NCBI GenBank assembly: GCA_000209815.1
Contig: FP929036.1
Coordinates: 1,377,824-1,441,823 of the forward strand
Reading direction: 5' to 3'
Length of the DNA: 64,000 bases
Source of the DNA: Butyrivibrio fibrisolvens 16/4
GTDB taxonomy: Bacteria; Bacillota; Clostridia; Lachnospirales; Lachnospiraceae
The position numbers and the translations under genes are program-made. Positions within the stretch are counted from its first letter, which is position 1, and each line of letters begins with the position of its first letter. Below are positions 20,044-64,000 of the stretch, in pieces. The notes beneath the pieces were generated by a model. That model had not been told where the DNA came from. It saw only the letters and a program-made list of their open reading frames with translations, and did not search any database.

Positions 20044-20060
20044 GGGAGTTTGATTAGTTT

Positions 20061-34983: not shown

Positions 34984-35009
34984 ATCTAAAAGTGGAAGGA
35001 GTAGCAAAC

Positions 35010-38000
35010 ATGGATAATGACAATCAGCAGATGGGATTATATGATCCCTCCTTTGAACACGACAACTGTGGAATCGGTGCGGTGGTTTCCATTAAGGGAA
35101 TAAAAACTCATCAGACTGTATCGGATGCTTTAAAGATTGTAGAAAATCTTGAGCATCGAGCTGGTAAGGACGCAGCCGGAGAAACTGGCGATGGAGTAGG
35201 TATTTTGCTTCAGATATCTCACAAGTTTTTTAAGAAAGCTTGTAAGGCTTCAGGAATTGCCATTGGAGATGAGAGAGAATATGGCGTTGGTATGTTTTTT
35301 CTTCCTCAGGATGAGTTGAAGAGAAAACAGGCAATGAAGATGTTTGAAATCATTGCTGCAAAAGAGGGCCTGGAGTTTTTAGGTTGGAGAGAAGTTCCTA
35401 CAAAAGCAGAGATTTTAGGAAAGCTTGCAGTGGAATGCATGCCACATATTATGCAGGGCTTCATTAAAAAGCCGGCAGATTGTAATAAGGGGCTGGATTT
35501 TGATAGAAAGCTTTATGTTGCACGTCGTGTGTTTGAGCAGACTGCTGAGGATACCTATGTAGCTTCTCTTTCTAGTAGAACAATCGTATATAAGGGAATG
35601 TTTTTGGTGGACCAGCTTAGACTTTTCTTTGAAGATCTTCAGGATGAGGATTACGAGTCAGCTATTGCTACAGTTCATTCAAGATTCTCTACAAATACAA
35701 ACCCATCTTGGGAGCGTGCTCATCCAAATCGTTTCATTGTACATAATGGTGAGATTAATACTATAAAGGGTAATGCGGACAAGATGCTTTCCCGTGAGGA
35801 GACAATGGTTTCTCAGGTTCTAGAATCAGAGATGACGAAGATTACTCCAGTTTGTAATCAGGCAGGTTCCGATTCGGCAATGCTTGATAATGCATTGGAA
35901 TTTCTTGTTATGAATGGAATGCCACTTCCTTTGGCGGTAATGATTACCATTCCAGAGCCTTGGGTAAAGAATAAGTCTATGGAGCAGGCCCGTAGAGATT
36001 TTTATCAGTATTATTCTACTATGATGGAGCCTTGGGATGGACCAGCATCAATTCTTTTCTCAGATGGAGATATTATGGGTGCGGTTCTTGATAGAAATGG
36101 CCTAAGACCATCAAGATACTACATTACAAATGATGATTATCTTATTCTTTCTTCAGAGGTAGGTGTACTTCCTATTGAGGAGAGTAGAATCAAGGCAAAG
36201 GATAGATTAAAGCCTGGCAAGATGCTTCTTGTAGATACAGTTGAAGGAAGACTTATTGCAGATGATGAGCTGAAGGCTACATTTGCAGCACGCAAGCCTT
36301 ACGGGCAGTGGCTTGATGCAAATCTTGCTCATCTTTCCGAGATTAAGATTCCTAATGAATCAGTGCCAGTGTATACACAGCCAGAGAGAGATAAGCTTCA
36401 AAAGGCCTTTGGATATTCATACGAGGAGATTAAGGAGTCTATTCTTCCTATGGCATTAAATGGTGGAGAAAACACAGGAGCTATGGGTATTGACGTACCA
36501 CTTGCTGTGCTTTCAAAACATCATCAGCCACTTTTCAATTACTTTAAGCAGCTTTTTGCTCAGGTAACAAATCCACCAATCGACTCTATTCGAGAGGAGA
36601 TTGTCACAGCTACAACTATCTATCTTGGTACAGCTGGAAATGTGCTAGAGGAAAAGAAGAAAACTGTAATATGCTTCAGATTAATAATCCTATCCTTACT
36701 ACTACAGATTTGATGAAGATCAAGTCTATGAAGGTACCAGGACTTAAGGCAGAGACTGTGCCAATTATCTATTACAAGAACACTTCTCTTGAGAAGGCTA
36801 TAGAGCATCTCTTTGTGGAGGTGGATAGAGTAAACAGAGAGGGTGCAAATATAATCATTCTTTCTGACAGAGGTGTGGATGAAAACCATGTGGCAATTCC
36901 ATCACTCCTTGCAGTTGCCGCTGTACAGCGTCACTTGGTTCAGACAAAGAAGCGTACAAGCCTTTCAGTTATTCTTGAATCTGGTGAACCTAGAGAGGTA
37001 CATCACTTTGCTACACTTTTAGGCTATGGTGCATCTGCAATCAATCCATATCTTGCACAGGAGACTATTGCAGAGCTTATAGAAAAAGGTCAGCTGAAAA
37101 AGGATGTTCACGCAGCAGTTGATGCCTATAACGAAGCTGTAATAAATGGAATCATCAAGATTGCATCAAAGATGGGTATCTCTACTGTTCAGTCATATCA
37201 GGGTGCTAAGATTTTTGAGGCAATTGGAATTAGTACTGATGTTATTGATAAATACTTTACAGGCACTATCAGTAGAATTGGTGGAATCACACTAAAGGAT
37301 ATTGAGGAGCAAGTGGATATGCAGCACTCACAGGCTTTTGATCCACTTGATTTGGATGTGGATGAGACTCTTGATTCCAGAGGCCAGCACAAGATGCGTT
37401 CAGGTGCAGAGGAGCATCTGTATAATCCGGCTACCATCCATCTTCTTCAGCTTTCTACAAGAACGGGAGATTACAATACCTTTAAGGAATACACTAGCTT
37501 AGTAAATGAAGAGGATAACATCAGAAATCTTCGTGGTCTTATTGATTTCAATTATCCTAAGAAGGGCATTAGTATTGATGAGGTAGAGTCAGTTGATTCT
37601 ATCGTTAAGCGTTTTAAGACTGGTGCTATGAGCTATGGCTCTATTTCAAAAGAAGCTCACGAGACTATGGCTATCGCTATGAATATGCTTCACGGCAAAT
37701 CAAATTCCGGTGAAGGTGGCGAGGAAGATGAAAGATATGAGATTGGGCCAGATGGTCTGAACCGTTGCTCTGCTATAAAGCAGGTGGCATCAGGTAGATT
37801 TGGTGTTACCAGTAAATATCTGGTAAGTGCAAAGGAAATCCAGATTAAAATGGCACAGGGTGCAAAGCCTGGTGAAGGTGGACATCTACCAGGAAAGAAG
37901 GTTTACCCTTGGATTGCAAAGACACGTCTTTCTACTCCAGGTGTAGCTCTTATTTCTCCACCACCTCATCACGATATTTATTCAATTGAGGATTTGGCAG

Positions 38001-39541
38001 AGCTTATCTATGATTTAAAGAATGCAAATAAGGATGCCCGTATTTCTGTAAAGCTTGTATCTGAGGCAGGTGTAGGAACTATTGCTTCAGGTGTTGCAAA
38101 GGCTGGTGCCCAGGTAATTCTAATTTCTGGATACGATGGAGGAACTGGTGCAGCTCCAAAATCATCTATTCATAATGCAGGTCTTCCTTGGGAGCTTGGT
38201 CTTGCTGAGGCTCATCAGACACTTATGATGAATGGGCTTAGAAATAAGGTCGTCATCGAGACAGACGGAAAGCTTATGAGTGGAAGGGATGTGGCCATCG
38301 CATGTGCCCTTGGTGCAGAGGAGTTTGGTTTTGCCACAGCACCACTTGTTACTATGGGCTGTGTAATGATGCGTGTCTGCAACCTTGATACTTGTCCAGT
38401 TGGTGTGGCTACTCAGAATCCAGAGCTTAGAAAACGCTTTAGTGGAAAGCCAGAGTACGTTGTAAACTTTATGCGATTTATTGCTGAGGAGCTTCGTGAA
38501 TATATGGCTCAGCTTGGCTGTAAGACTGTAGATGAGCTTTGTGGACGTACAGATTTACTTAAGGTTAAGGACAACTGCAAGAACGGTGCTTATGGCAAGG
38601 TTGATATGTCTGCAGTTCTTAATAATCCATTCGAGGGTGAGAAGATTTCTTACGAGAACAAGAATGTATATAACTTTGAGCTTGAGAAGACTGTCGATGA
38701 AAAGATTCTTCTGAAGAAGCTTTCTAGCGCTATAAAGGCGGGAAAGCCATCCGAGCTTACTGTAGATATTTCTAATACCGACAGAAGCCTTGGAACTCTT
38801 CTGGGTGCAGAGCTTACACGTCATTTTGGTGAAAGCCTCGAGGAGGATACCTATAGGGTTAACTGTCATGGTGCAGGTGGCCAGTCCTTTGGTGCATTTA
38901 TTCCTAAGGGCCTTACACTTGAGCTTGAAGGTGACTCTAACGATTACTTCGGTAAGGGACTTTCAGGAGGTAAGCTTATTGTTTATCCATCAAAGGAGGC
39001 TACCTATAAGCAGGATGAGAATATCATCATTGGTAACGTGGCTCTTTATGGTGCTACAAGCGGAAAGGCATTTATAAATGGTGTGGCAGGAGAGCGTTTT
39101 GCAGTTCGTAATTCTGGAGCAACAGCTGTAGTAGAAGGCTGCGGTGACCATGGCTGCGAGTATATGACTGGTGGTTGTGTAGTTGTGCTTGGAACTACTG
39201 GCAAGAATTTTGCTGCAGGTATGTCAGGCGGTATTGCCTATGTTCTTGATGAGGATGCAACACTTTATAAGAGATTGAACAAGTCCATGGTAAGCCTGGA
39301 GACTGTAACAGATAAGTATGATGTTTTAGAGCTTAAGGAAATCATTAAGGAGCATGTCAAGGCAACAGGCTCTGTAAAGGGTAAGGAAGTATACGAAAAC
39401 TTTAGCGAGTACCTTCCTAAGTTCAAGCGAATTGTGCCATTCGATTACAAGAAGATGATGCAGACTATTGTTCAGATGGAGGAAAAAGGATTGTCTTCAG
39501 AACAGGCACAGATAGAGGCCTTTAATTTGTTATGTCGATAG
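35010..39541 (+). CDS. gltB: Glutamate synthase large subunit (one frame break)
   Basis: About 1510 residues. Glutamine amidotransferase class II domain first (nucleophile Cys in FEHDNCGIGAVVSIKG, freed by propeptide removal), then central domain, FMN-binding synthase domain (KPGEGGHLPGKKVYPWIAKTR, GYDGGTGAAP) with the 3Fe-4S cysteines in MGCVMMRVCNLDTCPVGVATQ, and the C-terminal beta-helix (GADHGCEYMTGG-like GCGDHGCEYMTGGCVVVLG). Glutamine + 2-oxoglutarate + NADPH gives 2 glutamate. Start ATG 35010 has GGAAGGAG. Frame break at A4 36660-36663; one extra A restores KKKNCNMLQINNPIL. Confidence 0.95.
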
Positions 39542-42794: not shown

Positions 42795-44887
42795 ATGAGC
42801 AAGGTAACAGAGATATTTGGAAGCAAGGTTTTTAACGACGAGACCATGAAGGAACGTCTTCCAAAGGACGCTTATAAAGCGCTCAGAAATACTGTGGAGG
42901 AGGGACGCCCTCTAGATAGAGAGCTTGCAAATGTAATTGCACATGCTATGAAGGAGTGGGCTATTGAGCTTGGAGCTACACATTTCACACATTGGTTCCA
43001 GCCAATGACAGGTGTTACTGCAGAAAAGCACGACTCATTCATTCAGCCAGAGGAAGGTGGAAAAGTCATTATGACTTTCTCAGGCAAGGAGCTTATTAAG
43101 GGTGAGCCTGATGCATCTTCATTCCCATCAGGTGGACTTAGAGCTACATTTGAGGCAAGAGGCTATACAGCCTGGGATCCAACAAGCTACGTATTCATCA
43201 AGGATGATACACTTTGCATCCCAACAGCCTTCTGTTCATATTCAGGAGAGGCACTTGATAAGAAGACACCACTTCTTCGTTCAATGGAAGCTCTTGATAA
43301 ATCAGCTGTTAAGGTACTTAAGCTATTCGGACATGATGATGTAAAAAGAGTTATTACAACAGTAGGTCCAGAGCAGGAATATTTCCTTATTGATTCTGAG
43401 ATGTACAATAAGCGTCCAGATTTAATTTACACAGGCCGTACACTTTTCGGGGCAAAGCCTCCAAAGGGACAGGAGCTTGAGGATCATTATTTTGGAACAA
43501 TCAAGCCTAGAGTATCGGCTTTCATGAAAGAGTTAGACGAGGAGTTGTGGAAGCTGGGAGTTCTCGCAAAGACAAAGCACAACGAGGTTGCTCCTGCACA
43601 GCACGAACTTGCACCAGTTTTCTCAACCACTAATATAGCAACCGATCATAACCAACTCACCATGGAGATGATGAAGGTAGTGGCAGGCAGACACGGCATG
43701 ACATGCCTGCTCCATGAGAAGCCTTTCGCTGGTGTAAATGGTTCGGGTAAGCACAACAACTGGTCTATATCAACTGATACCGGAGTAAACCTGTTAGAAC
43801 CAGGCGCTACTCCTTCCCAGAATGCTCAGTTCTTATTATTCCTCACAGCTGTTATCAAGGCTGTTGATGAATATCAGGAGTTACTCCGAGTATCTGTTGC
43901 ATCTGCTGGAAACGACCATAGACTTGGAGCAAATGAGGCACCACCAGCAATCATTTCTATGTTCCTTGGTGATGAGCTGGAGGCTATCGTAGAATCAATT
44001 ATTGATGGCACCGATTATGCAGATATTAAAAAAAGAAGATGTCAGTTGGTGCTGCTGTAATTCCTAGCATTTCACAGGATACTACAGACAGAAACCGTAC
44101 ATCTCCATTTGCTTTCACTGGTAACAAATTTGAGTTTAGATCACTTGGTTCATCAGCATCTATTTCAGGACCAAATGTAATCTTAAATACAATCGTAGCA
44201 GAGGAGCTTGATAAGTTCGCAGAGGAATTAACATCTACAAAGGACTTTGACAAAACTCTTGCAGAACTTTTAAAGAGAGAGCTTACAGCCCACAAGAGAA
44301 TCATCTTTAATGGAAATGGATACTCAGAAGAGTGGGTAAAGGAAGCTGAAAAGAGAGGTCTTAAGAATCTTAAATCTACAGTAGATGCTCTTCCAGCATT
44401 TATTGATAAGAAGGCTATTGATGTATTTACAAAGCATAACGTATTTACGGAGCAGGAGCTTTTCAGCCGTTATGATATTCAGCTTGAAAATTACTATAAG
44501 GTAATTGATATCGAGGCGCTTACTTTTGATTCAATGGTTAAGAAGGATATCATGGCAGCAGCTACTGACTATCAGTACACACTTGCTGAAACACTTAATG
44601 CAAAGGCTGCTACAGGTCTTTCAGTTGACTCTAGTGTAGAGAAAAAGCATCTTGAAAGAGCATCAAAGCTTACCTATGAGATGGATGAAAGACTTGAAAA
44701 GCTTGAGGCAGATATTGAAAAGGCCAAAGAGCTTTCAGATACCTATGAGCTTGCTAAGTTCCATCATGATGTAATCTTTGCAGATATGAATGAACTTAGA
44801 GAGGTGGTAGATGAGCTGGAGACAGTGGTTCCAAGCGACATTTGGCCATATCCAACTTATGGAGAGATTTTATATTCAGTTAAATAG
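42795..44887 (+). CDS. glnN: Glutamine synthetase type III (one frame break)
   Basis: About 697 residues, typical of GSIII, which is longer than GSI. Motifs: [21 protein letters not shown] near residue 65, [26 protein letters not shown] (metal Glu pair), [45 protein letters not shown] and [22 protein letters not shown]-terminal third is helical. Frame break at the A7 run 44028-44034; one extra A joins DYADIKK and [11 protein letters not shown]. Assimilates ammonium; probably the working glutamine synthetase of this locus, given the altered residues in the GS-like protein at 46880. Confidence 0.95.
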
Positions 44888-52500: not shown

Positions 52501-53843
52501 TTGATATGTCAGTTCCATTCCTTGCATTCTATGGAAACTGGGCTGATTCTCCAATGTTTGAAGACTTTGACTTCATGAAGTATGTACACGATCCTGAGTA
52601 TGCTAAGGAAGCAGTTACATATTCAGGTGTTTCAAAGACAAACTTCCTGTCATACTTCCCACTTGGAACAAGCAACGAAATGTACTATGTTCCAAACTAC
52701 TTTACAGATGATGATAAGTACATCGCAGATCGTAATGCTATCAGCAACGAGAACGGTACAATTCTTGGTGCACAGTACTTCTCATTAATCAGAAATGCTA
52801 GCAGAGTTGCACTTACAATTACTGATAGAAAGACAGGCGAGAAGTATTTCGAGAATGTTTCAAAGGATAAGGTCGCTGAGTTCTACTATGCAAATGAAGG
52901 CAGATGGGTAAATTATCTTGATGCAGAAGATCTTCTTTGGAAAGGTACAGATGCAGATGGAAATCCACTTGCAGATGGAACAGAAGTAGATATTACACTT
53001 CAGGCAGTACCAAGCTACTATGATGATGTTGAGGACATTTCAACACTTACATCACCTGGAATGTACATTACTACACCAATGGCAATCGATAATACAGCTC
53101 CTTCTATTTCAGATGGATTTGTTGATGATGATGGCAACTTAAATATCGAAGTTAGCGATAATCGTTACGTTGCTTCAGTTCTTTTAATTGCTAAGGATAA
53201 GAATACAATTCTTAAGTCATACGCTGTAAATCAGGAATCTATTGATGAGAACAAGACTATCAAGATTGACACTCCAGAGGACATCTTCTATGTAGAGGTT
53301 GTTGACTACGCATTTAACTCTAGAGTTTACCGTTTCAACAACACAGGTCACGATGATACTACAGTAGTAGATTCTCTTACTGTTGATCCAGAAGAGGTAG
53401 AGCTTGAGGTTGGCGAATCTGTACAGGTTAAGGCTACAGTTGGACCAGCTTGGTTAGCTGAAGGTGCTGACAGATTAGTATGGATCAGCGATAACAGCCG
53501 CATCGCATCTGTTACTCAGGCCGGTGTAATCACTGGTAAGAAGGCAGGCGAGACAAACATCACTGTTTATACTGTAGGAAGAGATGCTGACGGAAATCGT
53601 CTCACAGCTACAATTAAGGTTAAGGTAGTTGATAAGAAGACTGATGATGCTGACACAGAAGAGACAACTGATACAGAAGAGAAGAAGTCTGATGCTGAGG
53701 CAGAGGATGAGACTACAGAGGAAGTTGTAGATTCTGAGAAAGATACAGATGCTAAGGCTGATGATTCAGAAGAAGAGACAGAGGAATCTGATCAGGATTC
53801 AGAAGTAGCAGAGGATGAGTTAGGAGGAGAGAATGATGATTAA
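49590..53843 (+). CDS. Secreted subtilase (S8) with PA, internal dockerin and Big2 domains
   Basis: 1417 residues, lactocepin-like. Signal peptide (~1-29), acidic segment, I9 prodomain (~120-215), S8 catalytic domain with Asp257 (AVIDTGID), His348 (GDHGTHVSG), oxyanion Asn (ISAGNSG) and Ser698 (GTSMAAPS), and a PA domain inserted at ~530-640. After the protease an Fn3-like domain is interrupted by a dockerin pair at ~862-919: DLNDDGKVNAKDRKVLLQVVNG-type repeats, each with Asp/Asn ligands at 1, 3, 5 and 12. A Big2 domain (~1260-1350) and an acidic tail end it. No LPXTG or SLH. GGGAGG upstream. The next gene encodes a cohesin. Likely releases peptides outside the cell. Confidence 0.93.
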   Translation: MRRNWIPKKVLSVILAAAMSMSPAMTALASPVDESAEVNVQAEASDETVAEASVEADETEDAKDADASEEEAAKTEDEETEEAEAPLFEEVDPQEEGLVDPLENVDGETVETPVEPQDPNEQTRVIIVMEGDSVLDKGFDTADLADNKAAMKTADKIEAHQEKVVEKIEREALSGEELDVNYNFSILTNAVSADVAFKDIEEIEKVDGVAAVHVAAQYEPLVETAQPNTITSGDMVGSYNTWTAGYTGAGTRIAVIDTGIDIDHPSFDGSAFIAHLEETAEDASKTVEDYDLLDEDEIAAVLPNLNASKRYADLTAEALYNNEKVAYAFNYVDKNLDITHDNDKQGDHGTHVSGISLANTYVPNAASATGFAKQDAGVVGIAPDAQLISMKVFGTNGGAYSDDYMAAIEDAILLKADAINLSLGSSAAGDSYDEEEYINDIFKKLEGTSTVVSISAGNSGRWSDNSMYGVNLSKDVNLDTVGSPGSYYNALTVASAVNSGFTSSYFVSEDGQHIFVDDASESNSPFFLTLDTSADKNGTDYPFVFLDSFGEASDYEGLDVKDKIVFVSRGSITFGEKHSNAGAAGAKAIVIYNNQPGTISMTVKGSTATIPVVSIKQVEGAAVKATGKEVAEGVYEGTIKVMAVPETLRDVADGYTMSDFSSVGVPGSLDLKPEITAPGGNIYSTIDNGYYGLMSGTSMAAPSIAGQSALVQQYIRENDLAELNGVSVRTLAQSLLMSTATPLYEGNDRENGLEYSPRAQGAGLANVNDAVSSPSYILVGDKEGNDGKVKAVLGDDPTKSGSYSFDFDIYNMGVDPQYYELDASVLTEQLGEEDGITYFNGTSYALNPEVTLSADDTKLVYDLNDDGKVNAKDRKVLLQVVNGTKNVSIVETKEEYYDFNNDGVVNTKDVYVFSRALKGKADVALDLQVVEVKDSTKISVDINLSDSDREYLAAFENGMYVDGFIYVNGTVDMSVPFLAFYGNWADSPMFEDFDFMKYVHDPEYAKEAVTYSGVSKTNFLSYFPLGTSNEMYYVPNYFTDDDKYIADRNAISNENGTILGAQYFSLIRNASRVALTITDRKTGEKYFENVSKDKVAEFYYANEGRWVNYLDAEDLLWKGTDADGNPLADGTEVDITLQAVPSYYDDVEDISTLTSPGMYITTPMAIDNTAPSISDGFVDDDGNLNIEVSDNRYVASVLLIAKDKNTILKSYAVNQESIDENKTIKIDTPEDIFYVEVVDYAFNSRVYRFNNTGHDDTTVVDSLTVDPEEVELEVGESVQVKATVGPAWLAEGADRLVWISDNSRIASVTQAGVITGKKAGETNITVYTVGRDADGNRLTATIKVKVVDKKTDDADTEETTDTEEKKSDAEAEDETTEEVVDSEKDTDAKADDSEEETEESDQDSEVAEDELGGENDD

Positions 53844-54639
53844 GAATTTAAAAAGAGCAGTCGTTCTCGGTATGGCGGCAATCACATTGCTTACAGCAAC
53901 ACCTGCTACACCAGCTAAGGCTGCAGAGCTTAAGCCTGTTCACACAACAGTTTCTACAACAGGTAAGGGCGATAGCTTAAAGGTTACATATAAGGTAACA
54001 CTTGATAAGTCTGTAGTAACAGACGGTAGAGTTGCTGTTGAGTACGACCCAAATGTACTTGAGCTTACAAGCAATTCTCAGGGAATTAAGTTTAGCGATA
54101 CTGATGTAAACAAGTCATTTACTGATGGTTCTTCAAAGGGCGTTGCATACGCATTCGTTTCAGATGATCCTAAGACTGTTAGCGGAACACTTATGACTGT
54201 TCAGTTTACAGCAAAGAAGGGACTTGAAGAGCAGAAGACTAAAATCGGTACAAAGGTATTTGAAATCAATAACGAGGACAAAGCAGTTGTATCTGAAACA
54301 TTGCTTGAGGATGCTGTAACAGTTGGTAGACCTAAGCTTAAAAAGCCTTGTATCACAGGTCTTTTCCAGGCAGTTATCGGTATTCACGTAGGTTGGACAT
54401 GGGATAATAATGCTGATGGATACGAGTTATATAGAAGTACATCAAAGAATGGAAACTACTATAAAGTTGGCGAGATTTGGAAAATGAACAACATGATAGA
54501 TATTACTTGCCGTAATAATACAAAGTACTACTACAAGGTTGTTGCATATCAGGGATACGGTAAAGACCGTGTTTACTCTGAAAAGTCAGAGCCAGTATCA
54601 GTTACTGTTAGAAAGTTCTTTGGTTTATTTAGCTGGTAA
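53833..54639 (+). CDS. Secreted cohesin-FN3 protein
   Basis: 268 residues. Signal peptide (basic NLKRAVV, AITLLTATPATPAKA), then a cohesin-type beta-sandwich (~35-155): LKVTYKVTLDKSVVTDG, VAVEYDPNVLELTS, GVAYAFVSDDPKTVSGTLMT and VQFTAKKG. A fibronectin-III-like domain (~170-260: WTWDNNADGYELYRSTSKNG, YYYKVVAYQGYG) follows. No membrane anchor, LPXTG or SLH at the C-terminus. It overlaps the dockerin-bearing subtilase by 11 nt, with AGGAGG inside that gene, so the two are co-translated. Probably binds the subtilase dockerin and links it to something recognised by the FN3 domain. Confidence 0.8.
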   Translation: MMIKNLKRAVVLGMAAITLLTATPATPAKAAELKPVHTTVSTTGKGDSLKVTYKVTLDKSVVTDGRVAVEYDPNVLELTSNSQGIKFSDTDVNKSFTDGSSKGVAYAFVSDDPKTVSGTLMTVQFTAKKGLEEQKTKIGTKVFEINNEDKAVVSETLLEDAVTVGRPKLKKPCITGLFQAVIGIHVGWTWDNNADGYELYRSTSKNGNYYKVGEIWKMNNMIDITCRNNTKYYYKVVAYQGYGKDRVYSEKSEPVSVTVRKFFGLFSW

Positions 54640-54647
54640 AAGCTAAA

Positions 54648-54677
54648 GAAATACCCCTTGCTAAGCAAGGGGTGTTT
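54648..54677. terminator. Terminator between the cohesin gene and the thioesterase
   Basis: ACCCCTTGCT/AGCAAGGGGT stem with a T6 run on the plus strand, between convergent genes. Confidence 0.85.
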
Positions 54678-54678
54678 T

Positions 54679-55062
54679 TTATTTGAGGCCATTTGCCTTT
54701 GCCATAAATTTTTCGTTGTTAATGATGAAACGTTCGTGGGTGCCCATTCCAACAACTCCGTTTTCATCGGAGCAAACTACCTCGAAAGTAAGTCTTCTGC
54801 CATCCATTTCAATTAGTGTAGCTTCACACATAACAGTTTTTCCAATAGCACTTGGAGCCATATGGCTGATATTTACTTTGGTTCCTACAGAGCCAAGACC
54901 TTCTTCTAATTCTGGCTGTATCATTTTCCAACAGGTTTCCTCCATAAGGGCAATCATAGCTGGGGTAGCAAATACCTCTAAAGCTCCGCTTGCGAATGCC
55001 TTTGCAGTGTTGTCAATGGTAACAACTGTTTCGGCATTACCCTTCATTCCAATTTCTAACAT
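54679..55062 (-). CDS. Hotdog-fold thioesterase (FlK-like)
   Basis: 127 residues, single hotdog domain like fluoroacetyl-CoA thioesterase FlK and its many anaerobe relatives: the acidic helix ATPAMIALMEETCW and VGTKVNISHMAPSAIGKTVMCEA. Probably hydrolyses a short acyl-CoA in the cytosol. Substrate unknown; fluoroacetate specificity should not be assumed. Start ATG 55062 has GGAGCACC upstream on the minus strand. Single-gene unit. Confidence 0.85.
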   Translation of the reverse strand: MLEIGMKGNAETVVTIDNTAKAFASGALEVFATPAMIALMEETCWKMIQPELEEGLGSVGTKVNISHMAPSAIGKTVMCEATLIEMDGRRLTFEVVCSDENGVVGMGTHERFIINNEKFMAKANGLK

Positions 55063-55167
55063 TTTATAGGTGCTCCTTCCATAGCAACAATTTTACAATT
55101 ATTATACTCTTTTTAACAAAAAAGTGGTATTATTAATACATGTACCATAGGAAAGGAGACAATAAGC

Positions 55168-55536
55168 ATGATTAATGAAGAGAACATTATTGATTTATCT
55201 GATTTCGCAGAGCGGGATATCAAAGAAGAATTCACTCGGATTAAAGATAGCATCTCTGCGTTGGAAAAGCTTATTGATGCCAAGGAACAGGAACAGTCAG
55301 ATGAAGGTGCTGCCAATATGGCCAAAATCAAGGCTAGTATTCGGGAAAATGTGGAAGAAATCAGTCTTCCTCTGGAGCACAAGTGCGACGTTTTAGAAGC
55401 AAAATTAAACAGCATACAGGAAGGCCTTAATCAGGTCAGATCAAGACAAGAATCAAGATCACGATTATTAGTTTTAAATACAATTGGTATAGGGATTATT
55501 CTTGTCATGTATGTTCTGCAATATATTGGAATATAA
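55168..55536 (+). CDS. Coiled-coil protein with C-terminal membrane anchor
   Basis: 122 residues; AAAGGAG upstream. Mostly charged heptad-like helix (residues ~10-92, e.g. IKDSISALEKLIDAKEQEQ, LEAKLNSIQEGLNQV), then one C-terminal span (LLVLNTIGIGIILVMYVLQYI) with almost nothing after it, i.e. tail-anchored with the helix in the cytoplasm. No family recognised. Own terminator; no informative neighbours. Confidence 0.7.
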   Translation: MINEENIIDLSDFAERDIKEEFTRIKDSISALEKLIDAKEQEQSDEGAANMAKIKASIRENVEEISLPLEHKCDVLEAKLNSIQEGLNQVRSRQESRSRLLVLNTIGIGIILVMYVLQYIGI

Positions 55537-55548
55537 TGAAATTTTGTG

Positions 55549-55578
55549 GAGAATCCCGCGATTGTGGGATTCTCTTTT
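55549..55578 (+). terminator. Intrinsic terminator
   Basis: GGAGAATCCC/GGGATTCTC stem with an 8-nt loop and T6, just after the coiled-coil gene. Confidence 0.88.
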
Positions 55579-55671
55579 TTATGGTATAATTTGACACCGT
55601 GAGTTCGCTATTTTACAGCTTTTAATAAAAGCTTGAACCATCTATAAAAGAAATAAATATGGAGGATAAGA

Positions 55672-57432
55672 ATGAAAGCAATTCTTCAGCAAATCAAAGA
55701 AGAAGTTGTAGCAGGTTTTAAGGCCTGTGGATACGACGAAAAATACGGTATGGTTTCACTTTCAAACCGTCCAGATCTTTGCCAGTTCCAGTGTAATGGA
55801 GCACTTGCAGCTGCAAAGGAATATAAAAAGGCACCTATCGCCATTGCCGGCGAAGTTGCAGAGAAACTTGCTTCTAATAGCATGTTTTCAAAGTGCGAGG
55901 CTTGCCCTCCAGGATTCATTAATATGAATCTTTCAGATCAGTTCATTGTTGATTTTGTATCAACTATGGCTGATGATAAGGAGCGCTTCGGTGTAGACAA
56001 AGTTTCTTCACCAAAGAAGGTTATGATAGATTACGGCGGACCTAATGTAGCCAAGCCACTTCATGTTGGTCATCTTCGTTCAGCTATCATTGGCGAGTCT
56101 ATTAAGCGTACAGCACGTTTTATGGGAGACGAGGTAATCGGTGATGTTCATCTTGGAGACTGGGGTCTTCAGATGGGTCTTATTATCACAGAGCTTAAGC
56201 TTCGTCAGCCAGACCTTGTATATTTTGATGAGTCTTACGATGGAGAGTATCCTACAGAGCCTCCATTTACAATTACAGAACTAGAGGAGATTTATCCTTG
56301 CGCATCAGGTAAATCAAAAGAGGATGCTGCTTATAAGGAGGCTGCCATGACAGCTACTTACGAGCTTCAGCATGGAAGAAAGGGCTATCAGGCACTTTTG
56401 TCACACATCCTTAATGTATCAGTTAACGACTTAAAGCGTAACTACGAAAAGCTTGATGTAGATTTCGATCTTTGGAAGGGTGAAAGCGATGCACAGCCTT
56501 ACATCCCTGATATGGTTCAGAAGATGAAGGATGATGGATTTGCTTACATTTCAGAGGGCGCTCTTGTAGTAGATGTTAAGGAGGAAACCGATACAAAAGA
56601 AGTACCACCTTGTATGATTCTTAAATCAGATGGTGCATCTTTATATAACACTACAGACCTTGCTACAATGGTTTGGAGAATGAAGGACTACAATCCAGAT
56701 TCAATCATCTACGTTGTAGATAAGCGTCAGGAGCTTTACTTTACACAGGTATTCCGCTGTGCAAAGAAGACAGGCATTGTTCCAGCAGATAAGAATCTTT
56801 ATTTTGTGGGATTTGGTACTATGAATGGCAAGGACGGCAAGCCATTCAAGACACGTCAGGGTGGCGTTATGCGTCTTGAGTATCTTCTTCAGGAAGTAGA
56901 AGAGAAGATGCTTGAGAAGATTAGAGAAAATGGCACTATGGATGAAGAAGAGGCAGAAAAGACTGCGCAGATAGTTGGTCTTTCAGCTGTTAAATATGGT
57001 GACCTTTCAAATCAGGCTTCAAAGGATTATATCTTTGATATCGATCGTTTCACTTCAGCAGAAGGAAACACAGGCCCATATATTCTTTATACAATTGTAC
57101 GTTGTAAATCTATCCTCACAAAGGCAGGAGTTAGCTCATTTAACGGAGCTATTCTTCCTGCACATTCAGAGTCAGAGCGTGGACTTCAGCTTGAGCTTAC
57201 AAAGTTTATGGCAGCTCTTACATCTGCTTATGAGGAGATGGCACCACACAAGATTTGCGCTTACATCTACGATTTAGCTAACGCATTCAACAGATTTTAT
57301 CACGATACAAAGATTTTGGCTGAGGAGGATGAGGCAGTAAAGGCCAGCTACCTTAAGCTTTTATGGCTTACAAGGGGCGTTCTGGAAAAGGCTATAGACC
57401 TTCTCGGTTTCAATGCACCGGAGCGTATGTAA
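55672..57432 (+). CDS. argS: Arginyl-tRNA synthetase
   Basis: 586 residues, class I. N-terminal Add-1 domain (~1-100) for the tRNA D-loop, then the catalytic fold with HVGHLRSAIIGE as the HIGH motif (after GGPNVAKPL), and a C-terminal DALR anticodon domain (NAFNRFYHDTKIL, ending LLGFNAPERM). The KMSK loop is degenerate, as common in ArgS. GGAGGATAAG before the ATG. The next gene starts at the base after its stop codon. No T-box seen in the ~90 nt upstream. Confidence 0.97.
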   Translation: MKAILQQIKEEVVAGFKACGYDEKYGMVSLSNRPDLCQFQCNGALAAAKEYKKAPIAIAGEVAEKLASNSMFSKCEACPPGFINMNLSDQFIVDFVSTMADDKERFGVDKVSSPKKVMIDYGGPNVAKPLHVGHLRSAIIGESIKRTARFMGDEVIGDVHLGDWGLQMGLIITELKLRQPDLVYFDESYDGEYPTEPPFTITELEEIYPCASGKSKEDAAYKEAAMTATYELQHGRKGYQALLSHILNVSVNDLKRNYEKLDVDFDLWKGESDAQPYIPDMVQKMKDDGFAYISEGALVVDVKEETDTKEVPPCMILKSDGASLYNTTDLATMVWRMKDYNPDSIIYVVDKRQELYFTQVFRCAKKTGIVPADKNLYFVGFGTMNGKDGKPFKTRQGGVMRLEYLLQEVEEKMLEKIRENGTMDEEEAEKTAQIVGLSAVKYGDLSNQASKDYIFDIDRFTSAEGNTGPYILYTIVRCKSILTKAGVSSFNGAILPAHSESERGLQLELTKFMAALTSAYEEMAPHKICAYIYDLANAFNRFYHDTKILAEEDEAVKASYLKLLWLTRGVLEKAIDLLGFNAPERM

Positions 57433-58752
57433 ATGGATACATCTTTTTTACCAATTGATTTTATTAATCGCATGGAGCAGGACTTAGGTCCTGACTTCCA
57501 TGCGTTTTTGCGTTCTTATGAGGAAAACAAAATATCTGCTTTGCGTTTTAATCCAATAAAAGCTGATGATAAGGCTGTGGATAAAATGGCTTCTGTACTT
57601 ACAGGTAAGGTGGATTGGAGCAAGAACGGATATTATTACGACGAGGAATCAAGGCCAGGTTTACATCCATATCATGCAGCTGGTGTTTATTATATTCAGG
57701 ATGCCTCAGCTCAGCTTCCTGTAGAGATGTTGGCTCCGGTTCCTGGGGATTATTGCTTGGACTTATGTGCGGCCCCAGGAGGGAAGTCCACCCAGATTGC
57801 CGGATATTTAAAGGGCGAAGGCATTCTGGTTTCCAACGAGCCAATTAAAAACAGAGCAAAAATTCTCTCTGAGAATGTAGAGAGACTTGGAATAAAAAAC
57901 TGTATAGTTACATCAGAATATCCTGATAAGCTTTCAGAGGTTTTCACGGAATATTTTGATAGAATTATGGTAGATGCCCCTTGCTCAGGGGAGGGCATGT
58001 TCAGAAAGAATCACGATGCATGTACAGAGTGGTCCTTAGAATCTGTGGAAATGTGTGCTGCACGTCAGGCAGAGATTTTGGACAGAGCTTATGAGATGCT
58101 TATACCTGGGGGCAGGATGTGCTATAGTACCTGTACCTTTGCTAAATTGGAGGACGAGGAAGTGGTGGCTTCATTCATAAGTCGTCATCCTGATATGTCT
58201 TTAATAGAGGAGAGACGTTTGTGGCCGCACGAGGTAAAGGGGGAAGGTCACTATGCCGCTTTACTTGAAAAGGCAGATTCTGATGGAAGAGCAGAAGAAT
58301 GTAGGGCCTGCAGACATACCTACGAAACGAAAAAGATTAGCGATAAACTATTAAATGACTATTTAATATTTGCTAAAGATACTTTAGTAGAAAGTCTAAG
58401 AGATAGATTGTTACTTCTAGGAGATTTGTTGTATAGACTTCCAGAAGGCTGCCCAGATTTTAATGGGCTTCACGTATTACGTGGAGGATTATTCTTAGGA
58501 ACACTTAAGAAAAATCGTTTTGAACCAAGCCACGCTTTGGCTCTTGCACTTACTAAGGAAGATGTTAAAAATAGCTTTAATTTATCTTCCGACAGTCAGG
58601 ATATTCAAAATTATCTTAGAGGTCAGTCGATTATGGCTGATGTACAGGATGGATGGACCCTCATCACTGTAGATGGATATTCTGTAGGCTGGGGCAAAGC
58701 TGTTAAGGGTCAGATTAAAAATCATTATCCAAAGGGGTTACGTTTATTATGA
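57433..58752 (+). CDS. RsmF/NOP2-type rRNA cytosine-C5 methyltransferase
   Basis: 439 residues. SAM domain (~90-300): CLDLCAAPGGKSTQIAGYL, SNEPIKNRAKIL, MVDAPCSGEGMFRKN (motif IV Cys) and CYSTCTFAKLEDEEVV (motif VI catalytic Cys). The C-terminal ~140 residues form the RsmF-type extension ending VDGYSVGWGKAVKGQIKNHYPKG. Methylates C5 of a 16S rRNA cytosine. In Firmicutes RsmF can methylate more than one site, so the exact target is left open. Follows argS without a gap and overlaps yitT (ATGA). Confidence 0.92.
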   Translation: MDTSFLPIDFINRMEQDLGPDFHAFLRSYEENKISALRFNPIKADDKAVDKMASVLTGKVDWSKNGYYYDEESRPGLHPYHAAGVYYIQDASAQLPVEMLAPVPGDYCLDLCAAPGGKSTQIAGYLKGEGILVSNEPIKNRAKILSENVERLGIKNCIVTSEYPDKLSEVFTEYFDRIMVDAPCSGEGMFRKNHDACTEWSLESVEMCAARQAEILDRAYEMLIPGGRMCYSTCTFAKLEDEEVVASFISRHPDMSLIEERRLWPHEVKGEGHYAALLEKADSDGRAEECRACRHTYETKKISDKLLNDYLIFAKDTLVESLRDRLLLLGDLLYRLPEGCPDFNGLHVLRGGLFLGTLKKNRFEPSHALALALTKEDVKNSFNLSSDSQDIQNYLRGQSIMADVQDGWTLITVDGYSVGWGKAVKGQIKNHYPKGLRLL

Positions 58753-59615
58753 TTCATAAAATTTATAGGCATAAACAGGATATTTACGAATATATCATGT
58801 TTACAATTGCATCTGCTGTAATGGTTGTAGGTATTTATTTTTTCAAATTCCCAAACCATTTTTCATTCGGAGGAGTCAGCGGTATTTCTATTGTACTTGC
58901 ACAGCTTTTACCTAGAACACCAGGAAATATCAACTTAATCATAAATATGTTTCTTCTTGTAATCGGCTTTCTTGTTTTTGGCAAGAAATTTGGATTGAAG
59001 ACTACTTATATCACGTTGCTTGTTTCTTTTGGACCTAGAATTTTGGAAATGGTTTGTCCAATGGATGGACCTCTTACAAATCAGCCAGTACTGGAGCTTT
59101 TATTTGCTGTGGGCTTGCCAGCTTTTTCATCTGCTATATTTTTCAATCTTGGTGCTTCATCAGGTGGTACAGATATTGTAGCTATGATTTTAAAGAAATA
59201 TACAAAGGTAGACATTGGTACAGCGCTTTTCATGTCAGATGTATTTATTGTTGTCTGTGCTTGCCTTGTATTTAATGTTCAGACAGGTCTTTTCTCATTA
59301 GTTGGACTTTTGGCCAAGTCTCTTGTTGTTGATGAAACTATTGAGAATATTAACCTTGCAAAGTATTTTACTATCATATGTAATGACCCTGAACCTATAG
59401 TAAATTTCATTATGAATGACCTTGGTAAGGGTGCTACTGTTTACAAGGCTGAAGGAGCCTATGGTCATCAGGAAAAGACCGTAATTCTTACAATCCTTAA
59501 GAGACAGCAGGCTGTGGAGCTTAAGAATTTTATTCGTCGAAATCAGCCTTCTGCATTTATTGCAATCACAAATTCCAGCGAAATAATTGGAAAGGGCTTT
59601 AGGGGATATAATTAA
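58749..59615 (+). CDS. YitT-family membrane protein
   Basis: 288 residues: five or six spans (AVMVVGIYFFKFPNHFSFGG, INLIINMFLLVIGFLVFG, etc.), the family's GGVSGISIVLAQLL and LGASSGGTDIVAMILKKYT, and a C-terminal soluble DUF2179 domain (GKGATVYKAEGAYGHQEKTVILTILKR, ferredoxin-like). Function unknown. Overlaps its neighbours at both ends (ATGA, TAATG), so it is part of the argS operon. Confidence 0.93.
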   Translation: MIHKIYRHKQDIYEYIMFTIASAVMVVGIYFFKFPNHFSFGGVSGISIVLAQLLPRTPGNINLIINMFLLVIGFLVFGKKFGLKTTYITLLVSFGPRILEMVCPMDGPLTNQPVLELLFAVGLPAFSSAIFFNLGASSGGTDIVAMILKKYTKVDIGTALFMSDVFIVVCACLVFNVQTGLFSLVGLLAKSLVVDETIENINLAKYFTIICNDPEPIVNFIMNDLGKGATVYKAEGAYGHQEKTVILTILKRQQAVELKNFIRRNQPSAFIAITNSSEIIGKGFRGYN

Positions 59616-62159
59616 TGAAATCCGTTTGGGGAATAATGGCACATGTGGATGCGGGAAAAACCACATTATCAGAGGCTATACTTTATAATGCAGGCCAGAT
59701 AGCAGCCATCGGTCGTGTAGACCATGGCGATACTTTTTTAGATACAGATTCACAGGAAAAAGATAGGGGAATCACTATCTTTTCAAAGCCTGCAGTTTTT
59801 CAATACAATAATCTTTCTATGACTCTTTTAGACACTCCGGGACATGTGGATTTTGCCACCGAGGCTGAAAGAGCTGTTTGGGCACTTGATTTTGCCATTC
59901 TCTTAATTTCAGGTACTGATGGTGTTCAGTCACACACTAAAACCATCTTTAAACTTCTAGAAAAGAACAACATTCCAACAGTTATTTTTGTAAATAAAAT
60001 GGATATGGATTCTGCCAGTGTTGATTTAGTTCTTGATGGACTGAATCAGCAGCTTTCTGATAGATGCATAGATTTTTATGATGATGAGTCTATGGCTGCA
60101 GAGGATGAGAAGGCTTTGGATGAATTCTTAGAGAATGAGAACCTTTCCAACGACACCATAAAAAGACTGGTATTTGAAAGAAAGGTCTTTCCTGTTTTCT
60201 TTGGGTCAGCCATTAAAAATGAAGGTGTCGTTGAATTAATGAATTTTATGGCCGTTCTTTCTTCTGGTTTAAAGGAAGAAAAGGAATTTGGTGGTAGAAT
60301 CTACAAAATCGAAAGCCTTGGAAGAGACGCAAGACTGACCTTTACAAAAATTACCGGTGGTAAAGTAAAGGTAAAGGATGTTCTTCCTACAGGTGAAAAG
60401 ATTAATGAGCTACGAGTATATTCTGGAATGAAATACACTCAGGTGGATGAGGCTTCCCAGGGGGATGTTGTGGCGATAGTTGGCCCAAAGGAAACCTTTG
60501 CAGGCCAGGGCTTAGGTACAGAAAATAATAGAATTGAGCTTTCTCTTAGACCTGTGCTTCAGTACAAGCTTTCTTTTAAGGATGGCACCATTCCAAAGCT
60601 TGCCTATCCAAAACTGCTTGCTTTAAATGAGGAAGACCCTTCATTAAATGTTAACTGGGATTCCCATAAGGAAGAGGTTAGCCTTAATCTTATGGGCGAA
60701 GTTCAGACAGAAATTCTTATCAACAGAATTAAAAGAGAATTGAATTATGAGGTTGAATTTGAGGAATCCGGTGTTTTATATAAGGAGACTGTGGCAAAAC
60801 CTGTGGAGGGTGTTGGTCACTTTGAACCACTTAGACATTACGCCGAGGTACACATTCTAATGGAGCCTCTTAAGGAAGGAGAGGGAATTGTTGTAGAAAC
60901 TGATGTGTCTACAGATGATCTTTCTTTAAATTGGCAAAGACTTATAGAGACTCATATTCTTGAAAAGGAACATGTGGGTGTAGAGATTGGTGCACCACTT
61001 ACAGATATCAAATTTACCATCATCGGTGGAAGAGCTCATATTAAACATACTGAAGGTGGAGATTTTAGAGAGGCTACCTATAGAGCAATCAGACAGGGAC
61101 TTATGGAAGCTGGTACAACTATCCTTGAACCTTATTTGCATTTTTGAGATACTTGTTCCGTCTGATGCTATTGGCAGGGCTATGACTGATATTGAGACTA
61201 TGTCAGGAACCTTTGATGTTCCAGAGGATTTGGATGGAATGTCAAAACTTTCAGGTACAGCGCCTGCATCAGAAATTAAGAATTATCAAGCGAAGCTTAT
61301 TACATACACTAAGGGAGAAGGACAGTTGTCCCTTTCTTTTGCAGGCTACCAGATATGTCACAACAGTGAGGCAGTAAAGAGTCAGATGGAATACAATCCT
61401 GAAAGTGATATTGAAAATCCTGCAGCTTCTGTATTCTGTTCTCATGGAAGTGCAGTAATAGTACCCTGGGATCAGGTTAAGGATAAATGCCATGTGCCTT
61501 GTCGAAATGAAAAGAGGCAGATGATTGAAGAGGAGCCTACTACTAAAAGAATGAATCATTCTGTGGATGAATGGCTAGACCCAGACGAGATAGATAAAAT
61601 TCTCCATATGGCTACCCACAGCAATCACGGAAAGAATCCTAAAAAAGGATGGCATTACGGAGAGTCTAACAGACCAAGACGCGTAGATTCTGACTATGTT
61701 TATACAGCCCCAAAGGAGGTTAAGGCCAAAGAAAAATATCTTCTGGTGGATGGTTACAATCTGATTTATGCCTGGCCAGAACTAAAGGCAGTTCTTGATG
61801 TAAACTTAGATGGAGCCAGAGGAAAGCTTCTTGATATTCTTAGCAACTATAAGGCCATGACAGATTACAATGTGATTGCTGTTTTTGATGCATATCGTGT
61901 GAAGGGCCATGAGGTTACAGCATCAGATTATTTAAATATCCATCAGGTTTTTACGGCAGAGGCTCAGACAGCAGATGCTTATATTGAACGATTTACCCAC
62001 GAACATGGCAAGAAATATGACATATCTGTTGTTACTTCAGATGGCTTGGAACAGGTTATAATAAGAGGCGCAGGAGCAAGACTTATCTCTTCAAGAGAGT
62101 TTATTGAAGAGGTGGAAAGACGGGCTCAGGAGCTTCGAGAGCAGTTCGATATAAAATAA
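59615..62159 (+). CDS. TetM-like translational GTPase fused to a Rae1/YacP-like nuclease domain (one frame break)
   Basis: About 848 residues after repair. EF-G-like part: G1 MAHVDAGKTTLSEA, G2 DRGITIFSKP, G3 DTPGHVDF, G4 VNKMD, domains II-V through GYQICHNSEAVKS and VFCSHGSAVIVPWDQV, as in TetM/TetO relatives. After a ~65-residue linker comes a NYN-type domain (~710-848): YLLVDGYNLIYAWPELK, VIAVFDAYRVKGHE, VFTAEAQTADAYIERF and SVVTSDGLEQVII. This matches Bacillus YacP (Rae1), a ribosome-dependent A-site endonuclease. Frame break at T5 61141-61145: one T too many; with four, LEPYLHFEILVPSDAIGRAMTD reads through. Start TAATG coupled to yitT. Confidence 0.88.
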
Positions 62160-62263
62160 TTAATAGATTAGCGCTATTTCTTTTAACAAAATATTCATAG
62201 GTTTTAGTTATATTTTAATATGAAGTTGTGTGATTCTTGATTCACAGCTTTCGGGGAGGCTCT

Positions 62264-64000
62264 ATGGATAAATACGAATTTGGTGACGTTGAAAGAAAAG
62301 CGTTGGAAAAACTTAATATTCCGTTTGTTATATACCAGTTTATTGATAAGCGAGTATACACTCTTCTTGTAACAGACGGAATGTGTGCCATTATGGGGAT
62401 GAAGCGAGAGGAAGTTGTCGAGCTTTTTGACACTGACATGTATCGCGATACTCATCCCGATGATAAGGCCAGGGTTGCGGATGCAGCTTTTAAGTTTGCT
62501 TCAGGCGGAGAAAAGTTTGATGTTGTTTATCGTTCGATGTCTCACATAATGCACGATTATGTGATTATTCACTCTCATGGAGCTCATTTCTTTACTGATA
62601 ACGGAATTATGCTTTCTACCACTATGTATATGGTAGAGGGTATAGGTGGAGATGTTACAAATCCGCTGACAGAAGCATTGGCTTCTAATTTCAACAGTCT
62701 GATGACAAAGGAAAGTCTGATTCGTGACAATTTCTACGATACTCTCACTGGACTTCCTAATATGTCGTATTTTATCCAATTAGCTGATGCAGCAAAAAAA
62801 CGTTTATTTTCAGTTGGCAAAATACCAGCTGTTCTTTTCATGGACATGGTAGGAATGAAGTTCTTTAATGAAAAGTACGGCTTGAGAGAAGGAGATATAC
62901 TTTTAGTGGAGTTTGCCAATTTACTTAGAAAGTATGCCTCAAATGAAGACTGCGGTAGAATTGGTCAGGATCATTTTGCCATGTTTTTATGTGCTGATGA
63001 TATCGAGTCTATTGTTGAACAATTGTTTAACGACATGAAGTATGTAAATGATGGTAGAACCCTTCCAGTTCATATAGGTATTTATTCGGCATCCTTTGAA
63101 GATGTATCTGCTTCTACAGCTTTAGATAGAGCAAAAATAGTTTGCGATATGCAAAAGGGTATTTATAATTCCAGCTTTGCATATTACAACAAGGATGTAC
63201 ATGAACAGACTAAACAATACGATTATGTACTAAATAATTTCAAAAAGGCGATGGAAGAACGCTGGATATGTCCTTATTATCAGCCTATTATCCGTTCTAT
63301 TAATGGAAAAGTGTGTGATGAAGAAGCTCTGGCACGTTGGATAGATCCAGCTAAGGGATTAATCCCACCAGATAAATTTATAAGTGTTTTAGAGGATGCA
63401 AATTTAATTCATATTTTGGATTTATACATTGTAGATAGAGTGCTAGAGGACATGAATTATACAAAATCATTAGGCATGCCTCTTATTCCAGTATCTATTA
63501 ACCTTTCAAGATTTGATTTTAAATTATGCGATATCATTAGTGAAATAGAAAAGCGAGTTAAGGAAGCTGGAATCCTACCAGAGCTTATCACTATCGAGGT
63601 TACTGAAAGTGTTTCGGATTTTGAAAGTGACTTTGTAAAGGCTCAGATAGCCAAGATTCATAAGGCAGGATTTAAAATTTGGATGGATGATTTCGGAAGC
63701 GGTTATTCATCTCTTAATAATCTTCAGGAATTTGACTTTGATACAATCAAGTTTGACATGAAATTTATTCGTGAATTTACGAATAACAAGAAGAGCCACA
63801 TTATAGTTAGAGAGCTTATGCAAATGGCAGATAAGCTGGATATCGACACTGTTATGGAGGGTGTTGAGACTCTAGAACAGGCTAAATTCCTTCGAGAAAT
63901 AGGTGCCGATAAGATGCAGGGATTTTTCTGGGGAAAGCCAAATTCATTGGAGTCTAAGCACACAATCTATCAAAAAGATATAGGTAATCCTACAGAAAGT
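62264..64000 (+). CDS. PAS-GGDEF-EAL protein, degenerate GGDEF (runs off window)
   Basis: Open for 579 codons from ATG 62264 (CGGGGAGG upstream) to the window end. Order: PAS-like sensor (~1-140), GGDEF domain (~150-310) whose signature reads GRIGQDHFAM instead of GG(D/E)EF, and EAL domain (~325 onward) with E354-A-L (DEEALARW), INLSRFDF, ITIEVTES, WMDDFGSGYSS, IKFDMKFIR, MEGVETLEQ and QGFFWGKP. The cyclase half should be inactive (possibly GTP-binding), the EAL half keeps the metal and catalytic residues, so a c-di-GMP phosphodiesterase is expected. No membrane span. Confidence 0.9.
   Translation, partial: MDKYEFGDVERKALEKLNIPFVIYQFIDKRVYTLLVTDGMCAIMGMKREEVVELFDTDMYRDTHPDDKARVADAAFKFASGGEKFDVVYRSMSHIMHDYVIIHSHGAHFFTDNGIMLSTTMYMVEGIGGDVTNPLTEALASNFNSLMTKESLIRDNFYDTLTGLPNMSYFIQLADAAKKRLFSVGKIPAVLFMDMVGMKFFNEKYGLREGDILLVEFANLLRKYASNEDCGRIGQDHFAMFLCADDIESIVEQLFNDMKYVNDGRTLPVHIGIYSASFEDVSASTALDRAKIVCDMQKGIYNSSFAYYNKDVHEQTKQYDYVLNNFKKAMEERWICPYYQPIIRSINGKVCDEEALARWIDPAKGLIPPDKFISVLEDANLIHILDLYIVDRVLEDMNYTKSLGMPLIPVSINLSRFDFKLCDIISEIEKRVKEAGILPELITIEVTESVSDFESDFVKAQIAKIHKAGFKIWMDDFGSGYSSLNNLQEFDFDTIKFDMKFIREFTNNKKSHIIVRELMQMADKLDIDTVMEGVETLEQAKFLREIGADKMQGFFWGKPNSLESKHTIYQKDIGNPTES

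Follow-up and report, generated by a model that had tools for sequence, protein, structure and literature searches.

It was found that a gene for a translational GTPase runs, across a change of reading frame, into a NYN nuclease domain resembling Rae1 (YacP) in Butyrivibrio fibrisolvens 16/4. The window, meaning the whole stretch of DNA analysed, comprises 64,000 nucleotides of contig FP929036.1 (positions 1,377,824 to 1,441,823), and the window genome (G000) is one contig of 3.16 Mb. The features of the locus are listed below by window position.

58749..59615, plus strand: gene for a YitT-family membrane protein, upstream of the GTPase (open reading frame (ORF) list, profile match)
59615..61147, plus strand: first frame, a translational GTPase with domains G, II, III and IV, 510 amino acids (aa), which stops at the frame change
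59627..60250, plus strand: G domain, PF00009; the translation shows the P-loop, switch I, DTPGH and NKMD
60773..61111, plus strand: domain IV, PF03764 (profile match)
61025..61069, plus strand: tip loop 3 of domain IV, with the EF-G-type His retained and Lys in the place of TetM Pro-509
61135..61150, plus strand: frame change that splits the GTPase-NYN gene in the window genome (ORF list and sequence)
61149..61367, plus strand: remainder of domain V (EFG_C, PF00679), in the second frame (profile match)
61428..61493, plus strand: C-terminal extension, SVFC.HG...VPW..V...H (sequence and alignment)
61587..61613, plus strand: short conserved linker motif, EIDKILHMA in the window version (sequence and linker motif scan)
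61740..62147, plus strand: NYN_YacP/Rae1-like nuclease domain, PF05991 positions 1-138 of 166 (profile match)
61749, 61887, 61974 and 62040, plus strand: Asp codons of the NYN domain (sequence and alignment)

The stop codon of the YitT gene and the start codon of the GTPase overlap by one base. Against Pfam, the ORF at 59615-61147 matched GTP_EFTU (E 1.3e-49), EFG_IV (1.6e-16), and EFG_III (1.8e-8), and its domain II match was below the cut-off (24.7 vs 27 bits). The second frame, which extends to 62159, consists of the rest of domain V (EFG_C, E 3.3e-13), the short C-terminal extension, a linker, and NYN_YacP (PF05991, E 2e-46). The PF05991 score of 158.5 bits passes the curated cut-off of 24.6. 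With the G1-G4 motifs, the catalytic His, and domains II-V (domain II being sub-threshold), the window protein passes as a translational GTPase of the EF2 family. The two gene pieces of the window were handled separately in all analyses. A preliminary description of this DNA had proposed that an EF-G/TetM-like GTPase and a Rae1/YacP-like NYN domain are paired in one protein. The pairing is borne out by the Pfam matches in both frames and by single-frame fusions in relatives. The profile search suggested there for the NYN part gave, besides PF05991, B. subtilis YacP/Rae1 (5mq8/5mq9, E ~1e-19) as the best solved relative of the second frame.

The same description had placed both parts in one frame. 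This does not hold for the window genome, where the frame changes within 61135-61150, a stretch that the description had itself singled out for a check, and it does hold for 27 of the 28 other genomes of the genus, in which a single open frame encodes 847-872 aa (in four of these 27 intact copies, the profile match was drawn across one or two stops, which were read as the gene end). In the 28th genome (G024), the gene is in two fragments at contig ends. An intact fusion is thus the norm, and the break is peculiar to the window genome. Other genes of the window also look frame-split: those for a penicillin-binding protein (16948-17520 and 17358-18977), FtsW (20058-20378 and 20315-21217), glutamate synthase GltB (34974-36713 and 36671-39541), and, less surely, a type III glutamine synthetase (42795-44060 and 44039-44887). 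Since these four housekeeping genes look frame-split as well, an insertion or deletion (indel) error in the assembly would be the likeliest cause of the break. The window assembly seems rich in such errors, and therefore frame-based oddities in it deserve caution. It is very improbable that the frame change is real in the strain, through programmed frameshifting into two products or in a decayed gene. Such a change would suit a break that sits in a single-contig genome and two halves that both stay conserved, the NYN part being 99.3% identical to the nearest relative. It is at odds with the single open frame in the genus relatives, with the further split genes of the window, and with the different places of the other breaks in the family (in the linker in G055 and G215, in domain III in G132). 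Programmed frameshifting in particular was rejected on the first two of these grounds. The breaks in G055, G215, and G132 (loci L213, L066, and L067, respectively) may be errors or true separations.

Is the fusion common in Lachnospiraceae and in other families? NYN_YacP was found in 181 of 200 sampled Lachnospiraceae genomes and in 229 of 398 sampled genomes of the phylum, nearly always as one copy. The frame lengths are two-humped: among the 150 rows listed from the 181 matching Lachnospiraceae genomes, 133 are fused frames of 848-1045 aa, seven are stand-alone (174-210 aa), and the remaining ten are split, truncated, or unclear. With the GTPase profile A2, matches at E 1e-140 were obtained in 40 of the 398 genomes of the phylum sample: 10 are unfused frames of 645-674 aa, 29 are fused frames, and one is the split window gene. 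Named genomes were scanned as well; 588 stretches encoded some relative, and 80 loci were kept. By the filter, 78 of them are single-frame fusions, while L128 and L155 were dropped because they gave no single frame. The fusions include Fusibacter, Anaerovorax, Eubacterium xylanophilum, Intestinimonas, Flavonifractor, and Herbinix, and the named loci nearest to the window gene (L079, L080, and L088) carry the name Pseudobutyrivibrio, for which reason Pseudobutyrivibrio (Lachnospiraceae) is taken here as the genus of the window genome. Since 78 of the 80 kept loci are single-frame, the occurrence of the single-frame fusion is far beyond chance. A list of genomes with the same architecture, which the preliminary description had proposed to draw up, includes 27 of 28 genus relatives and 78 of 80 named loci, and supports the conclusion that the combination is not peculiar to one genome. 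Two sequence sets are used below: A1, the 29 fused rows, and A3, the 78 named fused proteins. Among plasmid records, just two of 1031 matching records span 80% of the fused protein, and both are large and typed as non-mobilizable. The fused gene behaves like a core gene of the chromosome and unlike a mobile gene. It was also observed, at full or nearly full length, in two unannotated 'Bacteriophage sp.' records from human stool (L301, MT835514.1, and MT835563.1), which may be mis-binned bacterial DNA or a phage copy.

A profile of the 29 fused NYN parts matched the B. subtilis Rae1/YacP structure with an E of 1e-40 over nearly the whole chain. The Asp residues of the motifs DGYN, FDA, TAD, and TSD, which I take to be the catalytic residues of the NYN family, are invariant in 78 of 78 A3 proteins and 29 of 29 A1 rows, and they are present in the window protein. 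The two findings that the preliminary description had set against itself, a lack of the catalytic Asp residues and a stop between the two parts, are absent from the family as a whole (Asp kept in 78/78; a single frame in 27/28 genus relatives). The window protein resembles B. subtilis Rae1/YacP in an NYN_YacP domain of almost chain length and in the four motifs. It differs in the fusion to a GTPase, in the absence of a separate rae1 from the window genome, and, like the rest of the genus, in lacking a C-terminal tail, as described below. In the NYN tree, the fused domains group with seven stand-alone Lachnospiraceae rows, apart from the rows of other families of the phylum (support 100/100; five rows representing four genes). 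L035 and L069 in this tree are the same gene. The support for the fused NYN domains as one clade is weak (76/72). Within the genus, the mean identity is 91.1% for the NYN domain vs 71.2% for the GTPase (36 pairs each) and 74.2% for the linker (28 pairs). The mean nonsynonymous divergence (dN) is 0.075 for the NYN domain vs 0.232 for the GTPase (36 pairs each); the synonymous divergence (dS) was saturated or could not be computed. Constraint is strongest on the nuclease, about three times that on the GTPase by dN in the genus.

The GTPase was compared with Tet proteins and EF-Gs in a 59-row tree. The fused GTPases (the 29 rows and the first piece of the window gene, 30 rows in all) form one clade (100/99), which is nested in a larger clade (100/99) with 11 unfused relatives. 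The larger clade is separate from 10 Tet proteins and 6 EF-Gs. Two unfused rows lie outside it: L258 forms a long branch, and L259 is placed next to Tet. They come from G521 and G563, which, together with the unplaced G416, were not counted as clade members (<540 bits). Three of the 16 unfused loci (G416, G176, and G098) and three EF-G2 loci were left out of the tree as unparsed. The sister of the fused clade (89/85) is the unfused GTPase L252 of G586, a genome in which NYN_YacP had no match; this GTPase may represent the ancestral state or may have lost the nuclease.

Profile scores and key residues agree with this placement. The best NCBIfam match of the fused protein L042 is tet_protect, with 383.5 bits, below the cut-off of 775, and the first piece of the window gene scores 341.7. 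Eight unfused clade members score 391-431, L258 457, and L259 614, while true Tet proteins score 790-874 and are encoded by separate genes in 16 of 100 family genomes. For the EF-G family TIGR00484, L042 scores 267.2 bits, below the cut-off of 659.4, and the window genome has a separate EF-G of its own (1117 bits). In a comparison with the PDB, TetO (396 bits), TetM (388), and EF-G (387) were at about the same distance from the A2 profile. The P-loop Lys, the switch I Thr, the catalytic His, and the Asn and Asp of NKxD are retained in 29/29 fused rows. At the position of TetM Pro-509, Lys is present in all 78 A3 proteins, 25 of 29 A1 rows, and 9 of 11 unfused relatives; the residue is Pro in 10 of 10 Tet rows. 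The EF-G His next to it is retained in 28/29 fused, 11/11 unfused, and 6/6 EF-G rows, and is Tyr in 10/10 Tet rows. A passage of a 2021 review locates Pro-509 in the tetracycline site (PMC8161019). Because of the separate clade, the low tet_protect score, and the Lys in place of Pro-509, the GTPase of the fused protein is assigned to a separate subfamily and is not a Tet protein. The label 'TetM-like' is not supported in a functional sense. The fused proteins share with Tet(M)/Tet(O) the domain order G-II-III-IV-V, the GTPase motifs, and the lack of the EF-G-type loop 1 insert. They differ from them in half the NCBIfam score, the clade, the Lys, the extra C-terminal extension, and the distribution (175/200 family genomes, compared with 16/100 for true Tet). 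With EF-G they share the domain order, the GTPase motifs, and the tip-loop His, but they lack the QSGGRGQ insert of loop 1, form a separate clade, and stay far below the EF-G cut-off (267 vs 659 bits).

Tet proteins with a YacP NYN domain are reported for ten clostridial species in a passage of Atkinson 2015 (PMC4342817), which proposes that a Tet-type ribosomal protection protein with an added RNase provides a new mode of tetracycline resistance. Besides being in print, this proposal can draw on tet_protect as the best NCBIfam match, on a RefSeq record that calls a fused member TetM/TetW/TetO/TetS (unfused ones are labelled likewise), and on a chromosomal TetM-like protein of B. toyonensis, a possible member of the unfused branch, that is reported to confer resistance (PMC5209696). 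I consider it improbable, since the score of 383 bits is about half of the 775-bit cut-off that true Tet proteins exceed, the fused GTPases form their own clade, the drug-site Pro is Lys in every named fused protein, and the gene is present in 175 of 200 family genomes and not patchy. An unfused relative with about 42% identity and the same C-terminal extension was observed on Ligilactobacillus salivarius megaplasmids (L300, NZ_CP011404.1 135792-137726). It carries a TetM-type resistance label in most listed records and adjoins rpsN.

The extension past domain V is common to fused and unfused members. Its F, G, and W are invariant in 29/29 and 11/11 rows, respectively, it is absent from the aligned Tet and EF-G rows, and the unfused L. 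salivarius protein ends with it. The linker from the extension to the nuclease is 62-146 residues long (median 80) in 73 linkers measured; five of the 78 were left out because the pattern for the extension failed. A motif, E[LIMV]xx[IVL][FIL]xx[TA], occurs in 57 of the 73 linkers, and in 52 of these 57 it starts 35-54 residues ahead of the NYN domain. Shuffled linkers gave a mean of 0.2 and a maximum of 2 occurrences, in a test that is not independent, the motif having been read off the same, mutually related sequences. The linker looks like more than a spacer, and as a guess the motif may be a docking helix.

Where is rae1 in genomes with the fusion? Among the seven Lachnospiraceae with a stand-alone rae1, the gene directly follows rlmB in five and lies elsewhere in two. 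It follows rlmB in none of the 13 fused genomes examined, the window genome included. In these, rlmB is followed by a SigH-like gene in 11 and by another gene in two (G057 and G163). SigH was the best NCBIfam match in all six scanned of the 11, above the curated cut-off in four, and the remaining five calls were made by sequence resemblance. In the window genome, rlmB is directly followed by the SigH-like gene, which scores 176 bits (cut-off 208), with no rae1 between, and no second NYN_YacP domain was found in that genome. Because rae1 is missing after rlmB and the window genome has no other NYN_YacP, the fusion seems to stand in for Rae1 in these bacteria. The order rlmB-rae1-sigH would be ancestral. 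Of the 200 Lachnospiraceae genomes, 175 have both NYN and the GTPase, six have NYN alone, 19 have neither, and none has the GTPase without NYN. An unfused GTPase is present in six of the seven listed Lachnospiraceae with a stand-alone rae1 (G098 has a partial frame with a stop, and G032 has none) and in none of the 19 without NYN, which gives p 3e-5 in a table that ignores phylogeny and takes its stand-alone genes from the 150 rows listed.

With about an even chance of being right, I propose that the protein is a Rae1-type endonuclease, encoded on the chromosome and targeted to the ribosome, into which a translational GTPase has been built, and a core protein of Clostridia, Lachnospiraceae foremost. 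The architecture, the one fused clade, the lack of rae1 at its usual place, the invariant active-site residues of both enzymes, and the stronger constraint on the nuclease than on the GTPase were observed. In EF-G and Tet proteins, domain IV goes into the A site and GTP hydrolysis powers the release. It is somewhat short of an even chance that a single protein detects a paused ribosome, makes its A site accessible in a GTP-dependent manner, and cuts the message there, serving as the usual Rae1 in most Lachnospiraceae and in many further Clostridia. The GTPase would dock at the factor site of the paused ribosome, as EF-G and Tet proteins do, and would clear the A site or keep it open. GTP hydrolysis would time the release, either with domain IV withdrawn while the protein is still held, or with rebinding via the linker motif. 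The linker-tethered NYN domain would then cut the A-site mRNA, which would lead to mRNA decay and/or supply trans-translation with a truncated mRNA. I infer GTP-gated A-site cleavage and all the kinetic steps of the cycle, the anatomy being what was observed. Rae1 attacks A-site mRNA in B. subtilis according to parts of two reports (PMC12320835 and PMC6613710).

Several points weigh against this proposal. Domain IV and the NYN domain should not both be in the A site at once; the A site fits one of them, and therefore the cycle would have to be sequential. The C-terminal tail of PF05991 is missing from the genus: full-length matches stop at or before position 144 of 166, which leaves out about the last 25 positions, and the window NYN domain has 141 aa vs 167 aligned. 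A section of one report lists R166P, near the missing tail, among the loss-of-function suppressors in B. subtilis (PMC6613710). Because the tail is missing, the window protein is Rae1-like, not canonical Rae1; many fused members outside the genus have the tail, with matches reaching 160-166. No pathway-indicating neighbour was found outside the genus, the largest neighbour cluster comprising 13 of 107 loci. No association of the GTPase with Rae1 was found in the phylum sample, in which NYN accompanies four of seven unfused members (Fisher p = 1.0), or in the class of G497, where NYN is present in 37 of 39 genomes with an unfused GTPase vs 287 of 299 overall. Five genomes (G502, G542, G586, G803, and G874) have the GTPase without a detectable Rae1. 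A phylum-wide dependence of the GTPase on Rae1 was rejected on these two counts of NYN. A functional tie is based on the fusion and on the Lachnospiraceae data, and it does not extend to a rule for the whole phylum.

These five genomes, the unfused GTPases that, by score, 39 of the 299 G497-class genomes carry, and the EF-G-type His at the tip of domain IV would also suit a GTPase with its own job, EF-G-like translocation or drug or stress relief, which carries the nuclease for co-regulation or stability only. I regard such a passive nuclease as unlikely. It would be hard to reconcile with a nuclease about three times more constrained than the GTPase in the genus, with the conserved linker motif, and with the fusion in 133 of 150 listed family rows.

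The neighbouring genes bear on a further possibility, ribosome quality control or rRNA processing, in which the GTPase would probe the 70S or 50S and the NYN domain would cut rRNA or tRNA. The stand-alone rae1 adjoins rlmB and also a frame that I take to be mini-RNase III (the copy in the window genome had no NCBIfam match at 1e-5), and rsmF lies two genes upstream of the fused gene in the window. Moreover, an rRNA/tRNA maturation role was the first proposal for YacP-like NYN domains, as cited in a passage of Atkinson 2015 (PMC4342817). The fused gene has no recurring rRNA-related neighbour outside the genus, and the studied member of the NYN family acts on A-site mRNA in the B. subtilis reports cited above. 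Processing of rRNA or tRNA thus seems doubtful, and A-site mRNA cleavage by a GTPase-borne Rae1-type nuclease is preferred.

The YitT gene is just upstream of the fused gene in 7 of the 107 loci scanned. The neighbours of the unfused relatives pointed to no pathway outside the genus. The rpsN (S14) link of the unfused gene, seen in L. salivarius, was dropped, since an S14 pattern that does recognise the L. salivarius gene was found in 0 of 31 other parsed loci (33 loci, L261 and L300 being unparsed; at least three repeat a gene that another locus already covers, and the flank is limited to about 1.5 kb in twenty). For anti-phage defence, the fused protein had no PADLOC match, and one unfused relative matched LeoA with 17.9 bits. 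No Rfam match was found in 54000-64000, no tRNA in the window, and no tandem repeats near the fused gene, and promoter-like sites were not above shuffles (11 vs 11.4). A small ORF at 53833-54639 of the window has a marginal cohesin-domain match (24.5 bits, cut-off 24.1).

In summary, the fusion is real and widespread, and its architecture is already in print, where it is classed as Tet; its function is here a proposal from sequence. The proteins of Atkinson 2015 (PMC4342817) have, in the passage concerned, the same architecture as the window family and are filed as Tet, while they are placed here in a separate GTPase subfamily with unfused relatives, in genomes where the stand-alone rae1 is missing. 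In searches of the open PMC literature, no later account of the fusion was found, and core Rae1 papers outside that scope may mention it. No description of a ribosome-rescue or mRNA-surveillance factor made of a GTPase and its own A-site endonuclease was found in the same searches. New here are the separate GTPase subfamily, the one fused clade, the missing rae1 after rlmB, the constraint on the nuclease, and the linker motif.

The fusion bears on how Rae1 reaches A-site mRNA. It provides the nuclease with a partner found in nature, a GTPase of EF-G/Tet shape, a kind of protein that docks at the presumed site of Rae1 action, and makes the GTP- and ribosome-dependence of cleavage testable. The tip loop suggests that the fused proteins give no tetracycline protection. 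If so, resistome counts of gut Clostridia would be inflated, since TetM-type resistance is the label given to a fused member in one public record or more. The fusion occurs in many gut and rumen bacteria, and it looks like a core translation-control protein.

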